NCBI GenBank assembly: GCA_947493215.1
Contig: CANLQE010000004.1
Coordinates: 186,001 to 250,000 of the forward strand
Length of the DNA: 64,000 nucleotides
Reading direction: 5' to 3'
DNA from: an uncultured Sphingomonadaceae bacterium
GTDB taxonomy: Bacteria; Pseudomonadota; Alphaproteobacteria; Sphingomonadales; Sphingomonadaceae
Position 1 is the stretch's first letter, and each line of letters starts with the position of its first letter. Positions 42,406-50,623 of the stretch are shown piece by piece. Made by a program: the position numbers and the translations under genes. Under the pieces are notes generated by a model. That model ran no database searches and was not told the origin of the DNA. It worked only from the letters and a program-made list of their open reading frames with translations.

Positions 42406-43254
42406 TTAGCCTGGCCGTTCTGCCAAAAGCGCGCGTACCAATGGCTGTAAGTTTTCATCATAGCGCGCGAGCATCACATGCTCCTCCGCAGTTTCAAAAT
42501 GGGTTACAAGCTGTTTACCGTTCCACAAATGTAAAGCAATAGCCGGTGGATCAGCAACAATCATGTTGCGCCCATCGGGATTTTCTGGATCAATTGGCTC
42601 TAAATCAAACGCCACTTGCGGGGCAGTAGAGGCGCAGATGGATAGGTTTGTGCCCTCAAAAGATGTTGAGATATTGCGGTGCAAGTGACCAGTGATCATA
42701 CCTTTTATCTGATCATGACCAGCCATCGTATCGGCCAGCGTAGATACCCATGGCTCGCGCGGATCCGTGTTCATCCATGCAATGCCAGATTCAACCGGCG
42801 GATGATGCAATATCAGGAGCGTCGGTTTGTCCGGCTTCTCCGCCAGCCGTTCCGCCAACCAATTGGCGCGGACATCACAAAACGAACCGCCATGGCGGCC
42901 TTCTTCGAGCGTATCGAGAAATAACAACCGCAATGGCCCGTCATCAATTTCATATTGGACAAAGCCATCTGCCGACGGAACATTAGGAAATTGTTTTTGA
43001 AATGGGCCGCGCAAATCATGATTGCCAAGACACATATAGACTGGGAACGGCAGGCCTGAAAAAGCCTCTTCGAGCTGCCGATAACTATATTGATCCCCGC
43101 GATCCACCAGATCACCGGTGGCAAGCAGCACATCGGGACGCGGGGTCATGTCGCACAAAGTTTTGAGCGCCTGGTCGAGGCGCTTGCGGTTAAATTCTGT
43201 CGGATTATCCGGATCAAAACCCAGATGAATATCCGTTACCTGCGCCAGAATCAT
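42406..43254 (-). CDS. cpdA: Class III cyclic-nucleotide phosphodiesterase-like (CpdA family)
   Basis: Calcineurin-like metallophosphoesterase of about 282 residues. The dinuclear metal motifs are in order: TDIHLG, ATGDLVDRGD, LGNHD, LHHPPV and GHLHRN. This spacing and the early DIH match the CpdA (cAMP phosphodiesterase) group, which hydrolyses 3',5'-cyclic nucleotides; other phosphodiester substrates remain possible. The ATG at 43254 is chosen because GAGGAAG lies five bases before it. It stands 54 bases after the FHA-decaheme cytochrome gene on the same strand, placing a probable cyclic-nucleotide hydrolase beside a protein with two cyclic-nucleotide-binding domains. Confidence 0.83.
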   Translation of the reverse strand: MILAQVTDIHLGFDPDNPTEFNRKRLDQALKTLCDMTPRPDVLLATGDLVDRGDQYSYRQLEEAFSGLPFPVYMCLGNHDLRGPFQKQFPNVPSADGFVQYEIDDGPLRLLFLDTLEEGRHGGSFCDVRANWLAERLAEKPDKPTLLILHHPPVESGIAWMNTDPREPWVSTLADTMAGHDQIKGMITGHLHRNISTSFEGTNLSICASTAPQVAFDLEPIDPENPDGRNMIVADPPAIALHLWNGKQLVTHFETAEEHVMLARYDENLQPLVRALLAERPG

Positions 43255-43308: not shown

Positions 43309-45177
43309 CTAACGACTGGCAATTTTCTGCTTTCGTATCTTAACCGTCAACTTATCAGAAGGCTTGAGCGCTTCATTGTCATTTGCCATCTTATCTGGCT
43401 TTTTCTGTTTGTCCTTTTGCTGCTCCTTGATCAACCAAGGCGCACCGTCGTCAGCATGATAGTCATGACACATAGCGCATGTCGAGGGCACATCCGACGT
43501 TTCTTGGAATTCACCGCCATGGCATTCGCGGCAGGTTTTGATTCCCGGGAGCAACAAATCCCGCGCATCGTTGGACTTGGTCGCGGCATGACAGCTGGTA
43601 CAATCCTCTTGCGTGTGCGCTTCATGGCTGAACCAGCCTTTGTGCATATAGCGGTCCGTTTGTGTCACTGGCTTGATGCCATAATCAACCCGTCCGCGCG
43701 CCGTCGGCGGGGTAACGCCATGGCAATCGAAACAAGCGCCGCCGCGCGAGAATACTTGTTGGATGGCAAGGTTCGCTCGGCTTGGCCGGAACTGAACCGC
43801 ACGGGCATAGTCGCTGGCAACACGATTATCATTTTGGGCACCGGGCCGCCGCCGCTTCATGCCGCCAAGATTAATCGGTCGTGATGGGCCGGTGGAACGA
43901 TAATAGGCACGCAGATCAGCGCGCACCATATCGGGCTCGCCATGACGCAATGTCCGCACCGTATTGCCAATTTCTTCAAAAGCAAGACTGTGGCACATGC
44001 TGCAATCTTCTTTCATATCGACCGGTTCAAACCGTACACCGTTGGAATCTGGCGTATGACAATCAGCGCAAGCGAGCGAGTCGCCAAAATCATATTTGGC
44101 CGACAGCCGCCGACCCATTTGAGCCACGCCGCCAGTTTTCGACATATGAACATCATGTGGAAACTTCAGGCCATTATATTCGCTGGGCTTCTCATCAAGC
44201 GAGACCCTCTTGCGCAGCGGATTCTTGCCACCTGGCTCAACCAACAGCGCAGGACGAAACTGTGGGTGTGAAATCCCGAAGTCAGCCGCATTTTCAAGCT
44301 TTGTATCCGTCAAGCGCCCGTCCATTCCCTCATGGCAATCCGCGCAGAATTTTTGCGCTGTCGGCTGCATAGCACCCTCACCTTCATGCTCGGTGTGACA
44401 TTCGACACACCTGCCCGGTGGTTTGTTAAAAGCAGAGGCAAAAGCCGCGCCTACTTTTTCAAATCCTTCTGGCTCACCCACGGCGGTTAGCAGACGGTCT
44501 TTCTTGGCATGGTCATGCGCGTCATCTTCGTGGCAGGTCATGCAGGTTTTGTCGGTAACCGTAACAAAGGCATCAACATGGCAGGCCTGACAATCTCCTT
44601 CGAGGCTGTGATGCGCCTCGCTCAGCTTGCCAGACGACCACATGGTATCAGCGTGAAAGCCGTCAGGTCGCTCTTCGATCCCCTTATAAGTCGCCCATGT
44701 ATAAATCGGCCAAACGAGGAAAGCGGCAAGCACAAGGCCGATAAAGCTCCAGGCGCTCATCCGCTTGCCAGGCAATAACCCTTTCAGCGTGTATAGCGCG
44801 CCCTCTTCGCGGTCTTCGGCGGAATCGGACAGAGCCTCGACCCGCTTAACGGTGAGGACAACGCCTTCGGCGTCTTCGCTGACCGTTATGACATGCCCAC
44901 CAAACCCGATTTCCGCTCCTTGGGCGGGATCAATCGTCGCGGACAATTTTTCTCGACCATCTACCGAGAATTTCTGACCCGAGATGCTCTCGACCTCAAT
45001 CTTACCATTATCCAGTTTTCGGATTACGGCATGGTCAGGATTAACCGCAAGGTCCGGCAAATGAATAGCGTTTCTAGAGTTACGGCCAACCCCGATTTGC
45101 GGCTCCGCAAACGGATTAGCGCGGATAATCTCACGGCCATCGGCAGTGACAGCAATTTGGCGAACGATAAATGTCAT
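43309..45177 (-). CDS. FHA-domain decaheme cytochrome c fusion
   Basis: Product of 622 residues with three parts. Residues 1-113 are an FHA domain: IGVGRNSRNAIHLPDLAV with Arg32 and Ser34, and His49 in NPDHA; the usual SRxH loop is NPDH here. Residues about 143-163 are one membrane helix. The rest contains ten CxxCH haem-binding motifs, starting at Cys196, 212, 257, 278, 370, 392, 482, 526, 549 and 567, with many extra His as distal ligands. The haem region must be periplasmic, leaving FHA in the cytosol. The tail is Lys-rich. It probably carries electrons from the membrane partner encoded just upstream. Confidence 0.9.
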   Translation of the reverse strand: MTFIVRQIAVTADGREIIRANPFAEPQIGVGRNSRNAIHLPDLAVNPDHAVIRKLDNGKIEVESISGQKFSVDGREKLSATIDPAQGAEIGFGGHVITVSEDAEGVVLTVKRVEALSDSAEDREEGALYTLKGLLPGKRMSAWSFIGLVLAAFLVWPIYTWATYKGIEERPDGFHADTMWSSGKLSEAHHSLEGDCQACHVDAFVTVTDKTCMTCHEDDAHDHAKKDRLLTAVGEPEGFEKVGAAFASAFNKPPGRCVECHTEHEGEGAMQPTAQKFCADCHEGMDGRLTDTKLENAADFGISHPQFRPALLVEPGGKNPLRKRVSLDEKPSEYNGLKFPHDVHMSKTGGVAQMGRRLSAKYDFGDSLACADCHTPDSNGVRFEPVDMKEDCSMCHSLAFEEIGNTVRTLRHGEPDMVRADLRAYYRSTGPSRPINLGGMKRRRPGAQNDNRVASDYARAVQFRPSRANLAIQQVFSRGGACFDCHGVTPPTARGRVDYGIKPVTQTDRYMHKGWFSHEAHTQEDCTSCHAATKSNDARDLLLPGIKTCRECHGGEFQETSDVPSTCAMCHDYHADDGAPWLIKEQQKDKQKKPDKMANDNEALKPSDKLTVKIRKQKIASR

Positions 45178-45192
45178 GCTTCTATCTCCCGC

Positions 45193-46074
45193 CTACCAGT
45201 AAAAGAAAACGCTGATGATATGCGCCGACAGCGACGCGATCAGGGCAAAAGTCATAGGCACATGAATGAACAACCAGACCTGCAAAAGGGCTTTCAGTTT
45301 GAGATGGCGACGCACCCGGCCGAGTGTCGCCTCCTTTTTCTCAAGCAATGCGTCTACCTTATCGAGCGGGTCGTCACCTCCCATGCGAGGCTGATAGGCG
45401 CGTTCTCGCCGCAAATCAGCCTGCGCAGCGCGGGTAGCGCAATTGGGATATTTTCCGGACACGCGTTTGAGGAACCCGCCGCCGAAAGGATCTTGTTCCA
45501 GCGATTGCAAGACCAACGCCGCATGTTCCGCCGACAAAGGCTGCGCTGCTTCATGCAGTTGCCGGTCGAGCGAGCGCAGGCTTTCCAGCATCTGCGTTTC
45601 GGTCATTTCGTCGCGGTTGTTGGACAAGGCTTGCGGGATAGTCGCGTAGAAATAAATCCCGAATATACCCGAAATTATTACAAACATCATGAACGCATAG
45701 GCCGCCGTGTGGATATTCCAGCCGAACTGAAAACCCGTATGCAAGGTGCCAATTACGATCAAACTGAGACCGAGATAGATATGGGCAGAAGTCCACGCCT
45801 TGAGCGACCATTTCCCCGGCGTCATCGCACGTTTGCGGACACCCAACATGGTCAGCCACAGGATCAGTCCCGCTCCGATAGTGCCGAGCGTATAGCCATA
45901 CCAGCTGCCGCCGTTATGGCGCGGCGACACATCGATGAAGAGATAGCTGACAATGCAAACCAGCATGATGAACGAAGCGATTTTCAGCCAGCGATAGCCA
46001 GCATGTTTGAGGAAGCCATCATGCATCGCAACTTTCTTTTTCGAGGCACCCCCGGGGACAGGAACAGAAGCCAT
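45193..46074 (-). CDS. Transmembrane di-heme b-type cytochrome
   Basis: Inner-membrane protein of 293 residues with five hydrophobic segments (about 31-49, 60-78, 94-115, 122-146, 264-290). Two of them carry the HX13H pattern: His98/His112 and His271/His285, the ligand arrangement by which ferric reductases and related cytochromes stack two haems across the bilayer. A charged cytosolic stretch of about 100 residues separates the last helix. It starts at the stop of the 816-residue gene (one-base overlap) and ends 15 bases before the cytochrome c gene, so it plausibly joins the cytosolic and periplasmic partners. Haem binding is inferred from the histidines. Confidence 0.78.
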   Translation of the reverse strand: MASVPVPGGASKKKVAMHDGFLKHAGYRWLKIASFIMLVCIVSYLFIDVSPRHNGGSWYGYTLGTIGAGLILWLTMLGVRKRAMTPGKWSLKAWTSAHIYLGLSLIVIGTLHTGFQFGWNIHTAAYAFMMFVIISGIFGIYFYATIPQALSNNRDEMTETQMLESLRSLDRQLHEAAQPLSAEHAALVLQSLEQDPFGGGFLKRVSGKYPNCATRAAQADLRRERAYQPRMGGDDPLDKVDALLEKKEATLGRVRRHLKLKALLQVWLFIHVPMTFALIASLSAHIISVFFYW

Positions 46075-48524
46075 TATGCCTCCTCCTGCTCAAGCTTGGC
46101 GACCGTGAGAAACTCCTCTGGAGCCACGCGAATGGCGGCTCCTGTGGGACAGGCGCGAACACAGGCAGGTCCGCCGTTTATGCCGGCACACATATCGCAT
46201 TTAATCGCCTTTTTGGGTTTCTCGACCTCTGGATCGCTATTGTCAGACACCCATTTCTTGTCCGGCTCACCAGGACCAGGACCAAAGCCAAAGAGCAGCC
46301 AGTTAAGAATGCCCGGTTTTTTCGGTGGCACTTTATCCATGCGGATGACGCCATAGGGGCAATAGCGCTGGCAGTTGCCGCAACCAATGCAGGTGTCGTC
46401 GATAAACACTTCGCCATCAGGACCACGATGAATCGCATCAGGCGGGCAGTCGGACATACAGTGTGGATGCTCGCAATGGCGACAGCTTGTCGGGACATGA
46501 AGATGCGCATAGGTACGCCCCGCTTCCCGATCGAGACGCGACAGGCCTTCATGGCTGTCAGCGCAGGCCTTTTCACAATTGTCGCACCCAACGCAGAGAT
46601 TTTCATCGATCAACAAAACATCGGTTGCTTCACCGATGCCATTGTCGACAAGAAAATTGGCGACGCCGGAATAATAGTCGACCACTCCAGAAAAACTGTC
46701 TTTCTTGGCTTCGACAAAGGCGTTGATATCCTGACGCGCCGCCATATCTTTTTTGGCACGGCGGAGCAGATCAGGATGCGCGTCGAGTACCTTCTTGAAA
46801 GCGTCCCCTTGAATTTTTATCACTTCGGACTTGATTGCAGCCTTCACCGTTGCCGTGCGCATTCCGCCGGCAATCAATGTCATTTCGCCAACATAGGAGC
46901 CAGCCGGCAGATAGGACAGGAATACCGGCTTTCCGCCAATTTCCTTTTCAACGACCATCGATCCGACGCGGATCACATAAATGTCATTGCCGTCATCGCC
47001 TTCGCTGATAATCGTCTCACCCGCGCGGACGTTGACAATCTCGCTACTCTCAACCGCTTCGGCAATATCTTCTTTGGTCAATCCAGACCCGAACATTTGC
47101 AGCAATTGCCGCTCGGTCGATATGCGGGTGATCGCGCGCTTGGCCGCTGGCACGGAGGCCTGCAATTTCAGTGCTGCTGTTCGCGATACTTCAATCGCAA
47201 TCATATCTTCAGCCGCCCGAACGGTTGCGCCGCGACGCCGACCAGAGATCAAGCCCACTTCGCCAAAGATAGAACCTTCTTCGATTGGAATGACGATTGA
47301 GCTATCGGTCGGATTTACCTCAACAAGCACAGAACCCTGGGCAATTGTGAACAATGATGATCCGGGATCGTTACGCTCAAATATTGTTTCGCCGCTGCGA
47401 TAAGCAATCGGCTCACTGTCGAGCATGAACTCACGCATCTGCAATGGCGAGAGATCGTTGAGGATCGTCACTTTCTCCCGGAAAAACTCCAGCCACTCGT
47501 CGACCGACTTGCCGCCGGGAAGTCCCGCGAATTTCTTCTCAAGAATGGGCTCATCGGCAGGTTTCAGGTCTGTGTTGCCGTTGATAAATTCAATGACATC
47601 ATAGCCCTGGTTCATGCAGTGCTTAATCAGCGGATAGCCGGCCAGCGCACCAATGACATAAATACCCTTTTTGGTGCTTTCAAAGGCAGGGGTCAGTTTA
47701 GGATAGGCTTCGCGATCTTCGCTGGTGAACTCGATCCCGCATTCTTCGACAAATTTACGCGGTGGAGCAGAGCCCATACGCGCAATGATGCGATTGCAGG
47801 GAATTGTTTCCTGACCGTCACGGGTTTCGAGGATCAGCTCGCCATCTTTAACTTCCGCCGGCGTGGTCTCGTTGCGGATCATGACTTTGCCCTGCTCGCC
47901 CGCTTCCATCAGCAGCTTCACATTGGCTTTCTTCGCACGGGCAAATTCCGCTGAACGGTTCAGGATCGTAACAATATTATTCTGCGCCGCATCCGCCGCC
48001 AGACCGAGCGCGTTTTCTATCCCTGCATCACCAGAACCGATAACCGTAATATGCTCATCATAATATTCGCCGGGATCATCCAGCTGATATTGCACCAGCT
48101 TGTTATCACCGCCGGGGCAGCGCATGAGATTGGGATTGCCCTGCGTTCCAATCGCCATGACGATGGTCTCTGCGAGAACCGTATCGCCATTTTTCAGGGT
48201 GATAGTGAAGTTTCCTTCTTCCCCTTCGATCTTCACCGGTTCTGCATTATACTGGACATTAACTCCGCAAACTTCTGTTTGCTTGTCCCAGGTGCCAAGG
48301 ATTGCCTCGCGCTTACCCGCGTCAAAATCCATATCCGAGCGCAGCACCAGCTGACTCGGCGTGGCCATGACGTGCTTGCCCTTTTGATATTTATAGATCG
48401 TATCGGAAAGATGATCGGTCTTTTCCAATAACACATGCTTCAATTTTAATTGCGCAGCACGGCCAGCGGCACTCATGCCTGCTGGTCCCGATCCGACGAT
48501 CACTACTCGAAACTTGTCCGCCAC
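46074..48524 (-). CDS. FAD/NAD(P)-cNMP-[4Fe-4S] fusion oxidoreductase
   Basis: Cytosolic protein of 816 residues. Residues 1-320 resemble thioredoxin reductase-like flavoproteins: FAD loop G11-S-G13-P-A-G16 and NAD(P) loop G163-S-G165-D-A-G168, but no CxxC redox pair. Residues about 358-470 and 480-595 are two cyclic-nucleotide-binding domains with cassettes GEVGLISGRRRGATV (421-435) and GEMTLIAGGMRTATV (546-560), both keeping the Glu and an Arg. The C-terminus has four [4Fe-4S] motifs: Cys644/647/650/654, 681/684/689/693, 712/715/718/722 and 776/779/788/792, as in DmsB/HybA-type subunits. GTG start. First gene of the redox operon. Confidence 0.88.
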   Translation of the reverse strand: MADKFRVVIVGSGPAGMSAAGRAAQLKLKHVLLEKTDHLSDTIYKYQKGKHVMATPSQLVLRSDMDFDAGKREAILGTWDKQTEVCGVNVQYNAEPVKIEGEEGNFTITLKNGDTVLAETIVMAIGTQGNPNLMRCPGGDNKLVQYQLDDPGEYYDEHITVIGSGDAGIENALGLAADAAQNNIVTILNRSAEFARAKKANVKLLMEAGEQGKVMIRNETTPAEVKDGELILETRDGQETIPCNRIIARMGSAPPRKFVEECGIEFTSEDREAYPKLTPAFESTKKGIYVIGALAGYPLIKHCMNQGYDVIEFINGNTDLKPADEPILEKKFAGLPGGKSVDEWLEFFREKVTILNDLSPLQMREFMLDSEPIAYRSGETIFERNDPGSSLFTIAQGSVLVEVNPTDSSIVIPIEEGSIFGEVGLISGRRRGATVRAAEDMIAIEVSRTAALKLQASVPAAKRAITRISTERQLLQMFGSGLTKEDIAEAVESSEIVNVRAGETIISEGDDGNDIYVIRVGSMVVEKEIGGKPVFLSYLPAGSYVGEMTLIAGGMRTATVKAAIKSEVIKIQGDAFKKVLDAHPDLLRRAKKDMAARQDINAFVEAKKDSFSGVVDYYSGVANFLVDNGIGEATDVLLIDENLCVGCDNCEKACADSHEGLSRLDREAGRTYAHLHVPTSCRHCEHPHCMSDCPPDAIHRGPDGEVFIDDTCIGCGNCQRYCPYGVIRMDKVPPKKPGILNWLLFGFGPGPGEPDKKWVSDNSDPEVEKPKKAIKCDMCAGINGGPACVRACPTGAAIRVAPEEFLTVAKLEQEEA

Positions 48525-48641
48525 GCGCTATCTTCCCCCTTTTACCGTCCCGGTTCAACGCACCCTCATGCGTTATGCGAACCAATACAGCAATTTCTTC
48601 GGCTTAAGCGCGACCCCAAAAGACTTAACTTACCAGCATCT

Positions 48642-48660
48642 TATCAAAAAGCTTTTGATA
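48642..48660. promoter_or_regulatory. Palindromic site in the redox operon promoter region
   Basis: Perfect inverted repeat with 8-base arms TATCAAAA / TTTTGATA around AGC. TACCAG occurs on both sides, at 48631 and 48661, exactly 30 bases apart. It lies 118-136 bases before the fusion oxidoreductase start and 139 bases before the CcmI-like start. Likely an operator for an unidentified regulator; it is not an FNR site, because the half-sites face outward. Confidence 0.45.
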
Positions 48661-48692
48661 TACCAGTGGAAAATATCACAGTTTCATCCGGT

Positions 48693-48706
48693 TTGATCTT
48701 TATCGA
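48693..48706. promoter_or_regulatory. FNR/CRP-family-like box
   Basis: TTGAT-N4-ATCGA matches the FNR consensus TTGAT-N4-ATCAA in nine of ten positions. It sits in the 274-base divergent region between the fusion oxidoreductase (48524) and the CcmI-like gene (48799), 93 bases from the latter. A second FNR-like box lies before ompW at 50706, which suggests shared oxygen control. Confidence 0.45.
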
Positions 48707-48798
48707 CGTTACGCAACAAAATACTTGTCAAACCATTGCGCTTCGCGACAATGCAACCAATCAACCGGGTCGCACCAGTCGAGAAACGAGTTTTATCA

Positions 48799-49794
48799 AT
48801 GACCGAACCAGAACAAGCAGCAAAACCTACGAAAAAGACCGGCGGTAATATCAGCCGTATCGCGCTGATCTTTGCCGCTATTTTAGCTATTGGCGCGGTC
48901 GGGGTGCAGGTATATCGGACAATGGACACCGAGAGCGCGGATAGCGCGACGGGCGCGACAGTAGCAGGCAGCGGGGCCGAAGAGGCACCCAGTGTTGACG
49001 AAGTCATAGCCGGATTAGAGAAAAAGCTGCAAGATGATCCCAAAGACGCCGAGAGTTGGCGGATGCTGGGCTGGAGTTATTTTGAAACCCAGAAATTCGC
49101 CGAATCTGCCACTGCAATGAAACGCGCTACGACGCTCGATCCGAAGAACCCCGAATATTGGTCGATGCTTGGTGAGGCACTGGTGATGTCCAGCGATGGG
49201 CAGCAAGTCCCCGCCGATGCCGCTGACGCATTTAAAAAGGCACTCGCGCTCGACAAAACTGATCCCCGTGCGCGCTATTTCCTAGCGGTGCAGAAAGATA
49301 TTTCCGGCGATCACAAGGGCGCGATTGATGACTGGTTCGCGTTACTCAAAGATACGCCCGCCGACGCCCCTTATGCCGGAGATATTCGCCGGGTCATCGG
49401 GCAGGTCGCGGAAAAAGAAAATATCGACGTCGCGGCAAGGCTTGCGCAGATCACCCCTGCAGCTCCCACAGGTGGCATGTCAACCAACGGACCCGACGTC
49501 GCGACCGCTGCGATTCCCGGACCCAGCCGCCAACAAATGCAGGAGGCAGCTGCCCTGCCCGCTGGCCAGCAGGAAGCGATGATCGCGAATATGGTAGAGG
49601 GCCTCGACAACAGGCTGCAATCTAACCCGAATGACGCCAATGGCTGGATCATGCTGATGCGCAGTCGGTCCCAGTTAGGCCAAACGGTACAGGCTAAAAA
49701 GGCGCTGGCCGACGGACTGGCAGCGTTTAAAAATGATGGCGCAGAGTCAAAGCGGATCCGCGAAGCTGCTATGGCACTGGGTATTGAGGGTTAG
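48799..49794 (+). CDS. CcmI/CycH-like TPR protein
   Basis: Protein of 331 residues: a polar N-terminus, one membrane helix (about residues 20-38, IALIFAAILAIGAVGVQVY), then tetratricopeptide repeats (DPKDAESWRMLGWSYFETQ, DPKNPEYWSMLGEAL, DKTDPRARYFLA) and a C-terminal repeat NPNDANGWIMLMRSRSQLGQ. The repeats resemble the periplasmic part of CcmI/CycH, which delivers apocytochrome c to the haem ligation machinery. The N-terminal two-helix part of classical CcmI and the other ccm genes are not here. Divergent from the operon encoding the ten-haem cytochrome, which needs such maturation. The ATG at 48799 is preferred to 48736. Confidence 0.72.
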   Translation: MTEPEQAAKPTKKTGGNISRIALIFAAILAIGAVGVQVYRTMDTESADSATGATVAGSGAEEAPSVDEVIAGLEKKLQDDPKDAESWRMLGWSYFETQKFAESATAMKRATTLDPKNPEYWSMLGEALVMSSDGQQVPADAADAFKKALALDKTDPRARYFLAVQKDISGDHKGAIDDWFALLKDTPADAPYAGDIRRVIGQVAEKENIDVAARLAQITPAAPTGGMSTNGPDVATAAIPGPSRQQMQEAAALPAGQQEAMIANMVEGLDNRLQSNPNDANGWIMLMRSRSQLGQTVQAKKALADGLAAFKNDGAESKRIREAAMALGIEG

Positions 49795-49954: not shown

Positions 49955-50623
49955 CTACAGTTTAATTCCCAAGCCTACGCCAATCACAACCGGGTCCAAA
50001 TTAATCCGAACCCGCTGCGTGCCAGCATCCGTCGTGCGTAAGGTCGCCGTGGTATCAACATCGAGATATTTCACATCAAAGTTCAGGACCATCCGGTCAC
50101 TGATCGGAATATCCACACCCGCCTGCAGCGCATAACCAAAGCTGCTTTTCAAGCTCACATCCGTCTCGCCAACGGCTGCTTCCAATGCATCGGTCGCATT
50201 TTCGTTATAGAAAATCGTGTAGTTAATCCCTGCCCCGACATAAGGACGGATCGCCGCATCGGGTGCAAAATGATATTGCGCCGTCAGGGTCGGCGGCAGC
50301 ACCCAGGTGGATGCCAGCCGGCCGATAGTGCCGGTCGTGCCCGAGACACCGCTGGCGCTATGTTTGGTGGTCGCGGCGATCAGCTCAAAACCGAGATTGT
50401 TGGTCGCCATATAGGTGATATCGACTTCCGGCGCAGGGCTGTTATCGACGCTGACCTGCTCGCCGGGAAAAGCGGGCAGAATTGAACCACTTTCTTCGCT
50501 TGGCATCACGTTGATCGCTCGAACGCGAACCAATATGTCACCCTTTTCTGCAAAGGCGGGTGCCGATGTGATGGCCATGCCTGACGCTGCCGCCAGAGCC
50601 AAAAGTTTTGCTGTTTTACGCAT
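49955..50623 (-). CDS. ompW: OmpW-family outer membrane protein
   Basis: Small outer-membrane beta-barrel, 222 residues. A signal peptide (MRKTAKLLALAAASGMAI, cleavage after AFA) is followed by GDILVRVRAINVMP, TYMATNNLGFELIAAT, LPPTLTAQYHFAP, RPYVGAGINYTIFYNE and the ending VDTTATLR ... IGVGLGIKL, all typical OmpW strands. The barrel forms a narrow hydrophobic channel. In enterobacteria OmpW responds to oxygen through FNR, which agrees with the FNR-like boxes upstream here. Monocistronic. Confidence 0.9.
   Translation of the reverse strand: MRKTAKLLALAAASGMAITSAPAFAEKGDILVRVRAINVMPSEESGSILPAFPGEQVSVDNSPAPEVDITYMATNNLGFELIAATTKHSASGVSGTTGTIGRLASTWVLPPTLTAQYHFAPDAAIRPYVGAGINYTIFYNENATDALEAAVGETDVSLKSSFGYALQAGVDIPISDRMVLNFDVKYLDVDTTATLRTTDAGTQRVRINLDPVVIGVGLGIKL

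Follow-up and report, generated by a model that had tools for sequence, protein, structure and literature searches.

In NADPH oxidases and ferric reductases, electrons run from NAD(P)H through FAD to two b haems carried on paired histidine helices and from there to the outside. Pio- and Mto-type pairs of a decahaem cytochrome and a porin conduct electrons inward, according to the part of PMC10654088 that treats them. In Geobacter, the ext cluster holds a Rieske protein (ExtO) and a bc-type cytochrome b (ExtP), and cyclic nucleotides are not mentioned in the sections of PMC5877670 that describe it; the sections of PMC6148476 and PMC5877670 that deal with extI report that its deletion weakens selenite and tellurite reduction. 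Here, we analysed three genes, FLV, TMB and CYT, in a 64,000-nucleotide stretch of DNA from an uncultured Sphingomonadaceae bacterium (the window: positions 186,001–250,000 of contig CANLQE010000004.1, assembly GCA_947493215.1; all coordinates are those of the window). Judging from the domains and residues that they conserve, it is fairly probable that these genes encode an inner-membrane module, tuned by a cyclic nucleotide, that exports electrons from NAD(P)H to a decahaem cytochrome and feeds an outer-membrane unit. No description of this module was found in the open-licence full-text literature; subscription papers and preprints lay outside that scope, so a prior description is possible.

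Order and linkage of the three genes

A preliminary description of the window, made from the letters and a list of open reading frames (ORFs), had proposed that the three genes form one unit. All three of its ORFs were confirmed by an ORF check, at the same positions and with the same tight spacing: FLV, TMB and CYT follow one another in that order on the minus strand, almost without gaps. FLV (46074-48524; 816 amino acids (aa), GTG start) is the first gene of the module and encodes a fusion of a flavoprotein with two cyclic-nucleotide-binding (cNMP) domains and a domain for four [4Fe-4S] clusters. TMB (45193-46074) encodes a five-helix membrane protein, predicted to be a two-haem b cytochrome, and CYT (43309-45177; 622 aa) encodes an FHA-like head, a transmembrane (TM) helix and a decahaem c domain. 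The stop of FLV and the start of TMB overlap by one base in TAATG, behind GGAGGAGG, and 15 bases separate TMB from CYT.

The full architecture was checked in the best 80 of 530 relatives found at E ≤ 1e-3 (the named loci); loci below a flank threshold (3, 4.5 or 9.5 kb downstream, 2.5 kb upstream) were dropped before counting. The order FLV-TMB-CYT was constant among those with at least 3 kb downstream (71/71). The nearest named relatives were an uncultured Sphingomonadaceae record, with 98% identity in FLV, and Parasphingorhabdus flavimaris, with 92%. We also searched draws of genomes from the class (289 genomes), the family (199) and the phylum (398). The module is not rare: FLV was present in 26 of the 289 class-draw genomes (E ≤ 1e-60) and TMB in 71 of the 199 family-draw genomes. 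Within the class draw, TMB was matched in 41 genomes, 27 of them at E < 1e-50 (the stretches of four of the 14 weak matches, L087-L089 and L191, were examined), and CYT in 28. The preliminary description had suggested looking for co-occurrence of the three architectures, and had regarded homologues that are routinely unlinked as telling against the unit. All 26 class-draw genomes with FLV also held TMB and CYT, and FLV and TMB lay less than 300 bp apart in 23 of the 26, so the homologues are not routinely unlinked.

Outside the class, FLV and TMB are joined into one ORF in two genomes that belong to the same genus (L182:3052-6423, 1123 aa; L183:6850-10206, 1118 aa). In these ORFs, the FLV profile extends until residue 793-794 and the TMB profile starts at residue 805-809; their CYT proteins have nine CXXCH motifs, the gene lying directly downstream in L182 and about 800 bases off in L183. 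Because the gene order is conserved and FLV and TMB are naturally fused, FLV, TMB and CYT are one functional unit, as had been proposed.

Predicted redox path and cyclic-nucleotide input

The N-terminal FAD/NAD(P)-binding domain of FLV (47571-48515, about residues 4-318) carries GSGPAG and GxGDAG motifs and is of the YpdA/thioredoxin-reductase (TrxR) type, matching Pyr_redox_3 (3.6e-29) and, at 117.9 bits against a cut-off of 339.9, TIGR04018. Its FAD and NAD motifs were invariant in 81/81 sequences. Disulfide reductases of the YpdA/TrxR type use a catalytic cysteine, whereas FLV had Ala at that site in 81/81, and among 20 wider relatives Cys was found in one (L052). Two cNMP_binding stretches follow (3.1e-31), namely domain A (47160-47462, about residues 355-455) and domain B (46755-47087, about residues 480-590). 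The consensus of the cNMP phosphate cassette is Gly-Glu ... Arg, and the corresponding residues of the two domains, E422/R431 and E547/R556, were invariant in 81/81 sequences and in 20/20 wider relatives. The C-terminal domain (46125-46616, about residues 637-800) matched Fer4 dicluster families, and its 16 Cys, which form four groups of four, were invariant in 20/20. No membrane segment was detected in FLV by hydropathy scan.

The same scan gave five membrane segments for TMB, the first two windows overlapping, and the predicted model was all-helical (pLDDT 82). Two His pairs, H98/H112 and H271/H285, each with 13 residues inside the pair, were invariant in 20/20 relatives (three of them distant) and in 49/49 sequences. 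This pattern of four His, two per helix and spaced across the membrane, fits a putative two-haem b cytochrome. The Ni_hydr_CYTB/b561 family (PF01292) matched 16 of the 20 TMB relatives at E ≤ 0.1 (best 2.6e-5), and a search of the TMB profile against PDB sequences gave nothing meaningful (best E 0.27).

CYT has a single TM helix by hydropathy scan (44704-44760, about residues 140-158) and ten CXXCH haem motifs (43456-44592, residues 196-574), all ten invariant in 74/74 aligned sequences; the alignment comprised the window protein and 73 named CYT proteins longer than 500 aa, three shorter ones cut by contig ends being excluded. Pfam recognised Cytochrome_C7 and Cytochrom_c3_2. Ligands are thus conserved for the flavin, four [4Fe-4S] clusters, two b haems and ten c haems, which argues for the inner-membrane redox path that had been proposed.

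The cytoplasmic head of CYT (44872-45114, about residues 22-102) matched the FHA family just below the cut-off (6.7e-4; 20.5 vs 20.7 bits), and the head profile matched FHA sequences from the solved structures of GarA/OdhI at about 2e-8. At E ≤ 0.1, 15 of 18 heads matched the FHA model and 17 of 18 a type III secretion (T3SS) model of the YscD type. FHA readers of phospho-threonine use the contact residues GR ... S..H ... N, in which the Ser contacts the phospho-threonine. Among the 18 heads, GR was present in 18, Ser in 2, His in 11 and Asn in 8; in the named CYT set, the counts were 74/74, 2/74, 74/74 and 15/74. The preliminary description had called this domain a phospho-peptide reader, a function that is unsupported because the canonical Ser is absent from 16/18 and 72/74 heads and because a sister variant, described below, has a Cys-rich head in its place; we therefore discarded it. 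Since the Ser is mostly absent, the head is better read as a docking fold, and most likely docks FLV.

The setting of the module, which the preliminary description had left unmentioned, includes genes on either side and the outer-membrane partners treated in the next section. The fourth gene of the cluster (42406-43254, minus strand, ATG at 43254, 54 bases past CYT) encodes a CpdA/SpdA-like metallophosphoesterase. Class III cyclic-nucleotide phosphodiesterases (CpdA/SpdA) bear the metal motifs D-x-H, GD, GNHD, HH and GHxH, and all five were found in the window protein. With 133.5 of 400 bits to the SpdA model and 85.5 of 225 to the CpdA model, it falls within the same superfamily. A metallophosphoesterase gene followed CYT in 66 of the 68 named loci that were eligible (the exceptions being L126 and L146). 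Because both cNMP pockets are intact and this phosphodiesterase-like gene lies next door, the cyclic-nucleotide input already put forward in the preliminary description is credible. Upstream of FLV, a divergent gene (48736-49794, plus strand) encodes a tetratricopeptide repeat (TPR) protein with a TPR_CcmH_CycH match (cytochrome c maturation), and was conserved in 73 of 74 eligible named loci.

This genome contains three adenylate/guanylate cyclase-family matches and no NapC/NirT (PF03264) match, the control for the latter search having matched in 1 of 14 known genomes; both results fit an NAD(P)H-fed export module tuned by a cyclic nucleotide. A NapC/CymA-type entry to the module was rejected for want of a PF03264 match in this genome.

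Regulatory elements were also sought. The interval upstream of FLV (48525-48735) contains imperfect palindromes that are CRP-like and FNR-like. Across 78 such upstream regions, CRP-like sites were found in 17 (shuffle mean 5.4, maximum 13) and FNR-like sites in 9 (mean 4.3, maximum 9), a weak enrichment that we discounted because the sites are common to close relatives. RegR-like sites numbered 23 against 20 in shuffles (maximum 27), ArcA-like sites 0, and scans for sigma-70 promoters and terminators gave no excess over shuffles. An OmpW-like outer-membrane protein (148.9 bits of 287) is encoded two genes from FLV, at 49955-50623; in the neighbourhood comparison, such a gene near FLV was common only to L078.

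In the phylum draw, TMB was matched in 37 of 398 genomes, and 20 of those stretches were examined: seven had the full FLV-TMB-CYT (two of them fused), eight a short FLV, two TMB-CYT without FLV, and three TMB beside other cytochromes. The TMB relatives L195, L198 and L199 adjoin cytochromes with 24 and 19, 21, and 34 CXXCH motifs, respectively. The sister variant with a short FLV (553-615 aa) was represented by 11 loci (L087-L089 from the class draw, L188-L194 and L201). Its FLV is missing the flavin domain, and at all 11 loci the stretch contains two further genes, c14 for a Fer2/FAD/NAD reductase and c13 of the c554 type. Exchange of the flavin domain for a separate reductase is what an NAD(P)H input predicts.

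None of the nine decahaem cytochromes of this variant that were scanned had an FHA match at E 0.01. A cytoplasmic Cys-rich head stood at the N-terminus in L087-L089, L187-L192, L194 and L201; L200 had no such head. When 12 variant heads were aligned (L187 and L200 included), eight Cys columns preceded the TM helix, each filled in 10 or 11 of the 12. The Cys-rich head, in place of the FHA-like one, has a pattern resembling YERPxxxWxCG...GDRWxCxRPxxxGGPC, and no Pfam family matched over it at E 0.01 in nine members scanned. Input and head can apparently be swapped while the two-haem membrane protein and the decahaem domain persist, and this exchange around constant parts fits the prediction of an NAD(P)H-fed transfer complex.

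Outer-membrane partners and competing readings

The preliminary description had ended the electron path at CYT. The path up to CYT was supported; CYT is probably not its end, because genes for a predicted beta-barrel and for a decahaem-propeller cytochrome accompany it, and further carriers would follow. The cytochrome, c4, has ten haem motifs in most complete relatives and in this genome, and a C-terminal LVIVD propeller; it is about 1320-1460 aa long when complete (e.g. L050:1494-5600). It was found in 43 of the 66 named loci with at least 9.5 kb downstream, mostly convergent and downstream of the module, and upstream in L139 and L154. Beside it, as far as the stretches reach, lie c3, which encodes the predicted beta-barrel (39 of 80 loci), c5, which is HbpS-like (16), and c9, a c554-type gene for a tetrahaem protein (3). 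In this genome, a c9-c5-c3-c4 row occurs on contig C1, its c4 sharing 73% identity with the L050 protein. Of the 289 class-draw genomes, 20 had c3, and every one of these belonged to the 26 that have FLV (nominal hypergeometric P 7e-26, a value inflated by kinship). Among the FLV genomes without c3, G060, G105 and G120 instead have c11, a pentahaem cytochrome, together with c12, which is also beta-barrel-like; the contig of G025 ends in c5, and G052 and G258 have only c9 in the examined stretch. No paper in the open-licence full-text literature combined 'LVIVD' with 'multiheme cytochrome'. A further gene cluster, c10, was left out of account; its long ORFs had no recognised content and are probably antisense frames.

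The module also occurs on plasmids. On pMSHV of Sphingobium herbicidovorans (NZ_CP020539.1, locus L205), typed as conjugative, it stands with the phosphodiesterase and a c4-like cytochrome, and TMB is carried by 12 Sphingobium plasmid records. In the public annotation of one plasmid copy, the three proteins are called 'cyclic nucleotide-binding domain-containing protein', 'hypothetical protein' and 'cytochrome c3 family protein'.

The predicted c3 model was all-beta with 18 strands and of poor confidence (pLDDT 48.6), and therefore we took from it only that c3 may be an outer-membrane-type beta-barrel. The c3 profile had no match among PDB sequences, and the c3 of L053 matched zero Pfam families at E 0.01, MtrB/PioB included. 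An MtrB-type barrel was rejected on the lack of a Pfam match and of any such barrel among the fold matches listed. A conduit made of c3 and c4 is plausible.

From the above features we infer the cofactors, complex formation, electron flow and its direction, gating and the acceptor. FLV, TMB and CYT would assemble into one inner-membrane complex, in which the FAD domain of FLV would oxidise NAD(P)H and electrons would then reach TMB via the four [4Fe-4S] clusters. TMB, carrying two stacked b haems, would hand them to the ten c haems of the membrane-anchored CYT; we infer a periplasmic location for these haems, as for c4. CYT would in turn feed an outer-membrane unit, made of barrel c3 and decahaem-propeller c4 or, in other lineages, of barrel c12 and pentahaem c11, the final acceptor being at or beyond the outer membrane. 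Both cNMP domains, placed between the flavin and the clusters, would be binding sites for cAMP or a similar nucleotide and would gate or assemble the input; the phosphodiesterase encoded next door would destroy that nucleotide, and the cytoplasmic head of CYT would dock FLV.

Several observations weigh against this scheme. The window TMB matched PF01292 below the cut-off (7.1e-4; 19.8 vs 30.1 bits), and a fold search with its model found no similar solved structure (best E 0.2). FLV was unlinked in three class-draw genomes, lying 9 kb from TMB in G274 and on separate contigs in G178 and G120 (the two contigs of G178 look like ends of one cluster broken inside c3), and two relatives, L187 and L200, had TMB-CYT without FLV in the examined stretch. 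A strict cNMP-cassette pattern was matched by just 2 of 11 short FLV proteins, so nucleotide binding and control may not be general across the variants. In this genome, the outer-membrane genes are on another contig and not beside the module of the window, and c3 was missing from 6 of the 26 FLV genomes. The low-confidence c3 model resembled AlgE/OprD-type (alginate) porins (best E 9e-9, TM-score about 0.3-0.4), and MtrB was absent from the matches listed (best 50 of 632); together with the poor model, this leaves the threading of a cytochrome through c3 unproven. Finally, electrons could flow inward instead.

The resemblance of c3 to substrate porins, as far as its model can be trusted, suits an alternative that we regard as somewhat unlikely, in which the module feeds a specific periplasmic or surface reductase, for instance of selenite, tellurite or another oxyanion, and c3 and c12 are substrate porins and not cytochrome sheaths. 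The same alternative draws on the matches that c4 and c11 gave to models for ExtM and ExtKL from the selenite/tellurite cluster of Geobacter, where extI deletion impairs both activities in the accounts cited above. These matches are far below the cut-offs (69.9 bits with 800 needed, and 56.1 with 250 needed), though, and their best stretches are only 50-80 residues long and contain haem motifs; moreover, Pfam recognised no catalytic domain in c4 or c11.

Sequence sets no direction, and the inward flow through Pio- and Mto-kind pairs mentioned at the outset offers a precedent for electron uptake, in which an extracellular or periplasmic donor would reduce c4/c3, then CYT, TMB and FLV, producing NAD(P)H. 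This is quite unlikely on energetic grounds: typical extracellular donors such as Fe(II) have too high a potential, and their electrons cannot reduce NAD(P)+ without energy input. In addition, pyridine-nucleotide reductase domains of the FLV kind usually oxidise NAD(P)H.

We find it improbable, too, that TMB exchanges electrons with the quinone pool, with FLV as an NAD(P)H:quinone branch and CYT as a quinol-fed branch. TMB remotely resembles b561/hydrogenase cytochrome b, a group in which some members react with quinone, and the missing NapC/NirT-family protein is in line with such a role, but the natural fusion of FLV with TMB and the strictness of the three-gene unit point to direct transfer. 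Highly improbable is a redox sensor or signalling unit that reports the envelope redox state through its cNMP and FHA-like domains with no respiratory flux: signal-type domains on both FLV and CYT and the phosphodiesterase-like neighbour speak for it, but none of the three proteins has a kinase, cyclase or DNA-binding output domain by Pfam, the FHA pocket is degenerate, and the haem investment and the cytochrome-maturation neighbour suggest flux.

We thus retain an NAD(P)H-to-decahaem export module. More tentatively, it may act as a cyclic-nucleotide-gated NAD(P)H wire from cytoplasm to exterior, a new inner-membrane entry to extracellular electron transfer in which cAMP, set in part by the phosphodiesterase, switches export and in which the input (a fused flavoprotein or a separate ferredoxin-type reductase) and the docking heads (FHA-like or Cys-rich) are swapped between lineages of sphingomonads and their relatives. 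Sphingomonads are known mostly as aerobes. If the above holds, these mostly aerobic bacteria would possess a predicted electron-export route with built-in second-messenger control, an inner-membrane entry type without a quinol dehydrogenase would be added to those known, and how cells decide on spending NAD(P)H outside would become testable. The matching outer-membrane parts of relatives hint at an unstudied electron route out of the cell.

Comparison with known systems

As in the porin-cytochrome conduits of the Mtr, Pio, Mto and Geobacter kinds, multihaem c cytochromes here adjoin a gene for a predicted outer-membrane-type beta-barrel, on a path that would span the envelope. The inner-membrane entry differs, combining a flavoprotein-cNMP-FeS protein, a predicted two-haem b cytochrome and an anchored decahaem cytochrome. 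This genome has no NapC/CymA-family match (ImcH and CbcL were not searched for); c3 has no MtrB/PioB Pfam match, and as a further difference c4 bears an LVIVD beta-propeller.

The Geobacter extHIJKLMNOPQS cluster likewise groups a porin, pentahaem ExtKL, 12-haem ExtM, a b-type cytochrome and an Fe-S protein, to which the weak matches of c4 and c11 point; these stay far under the ExtM and ExtKL cut-offs, and the three window proteins have no Rieske match. With the YpdA/thioredoxin-reductase family, FLV shares its N-terminal domain, as judged from Pyr_redox_3 and the TIGR04018 match below cut-off, but it has no conserved redox cysteine and is fused to cNMP and Fe-S domains. As in NADPH oxidase and ferric reductase, the module would carry electrons outward from NAD(P)H, by way of FAD and two b haems bound by paired His helices. 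It differs from both in that Fe-S clusters would stand between flavin and haem b, in that the parts are separate or fused bacterial proteins, and in its decahaem output.

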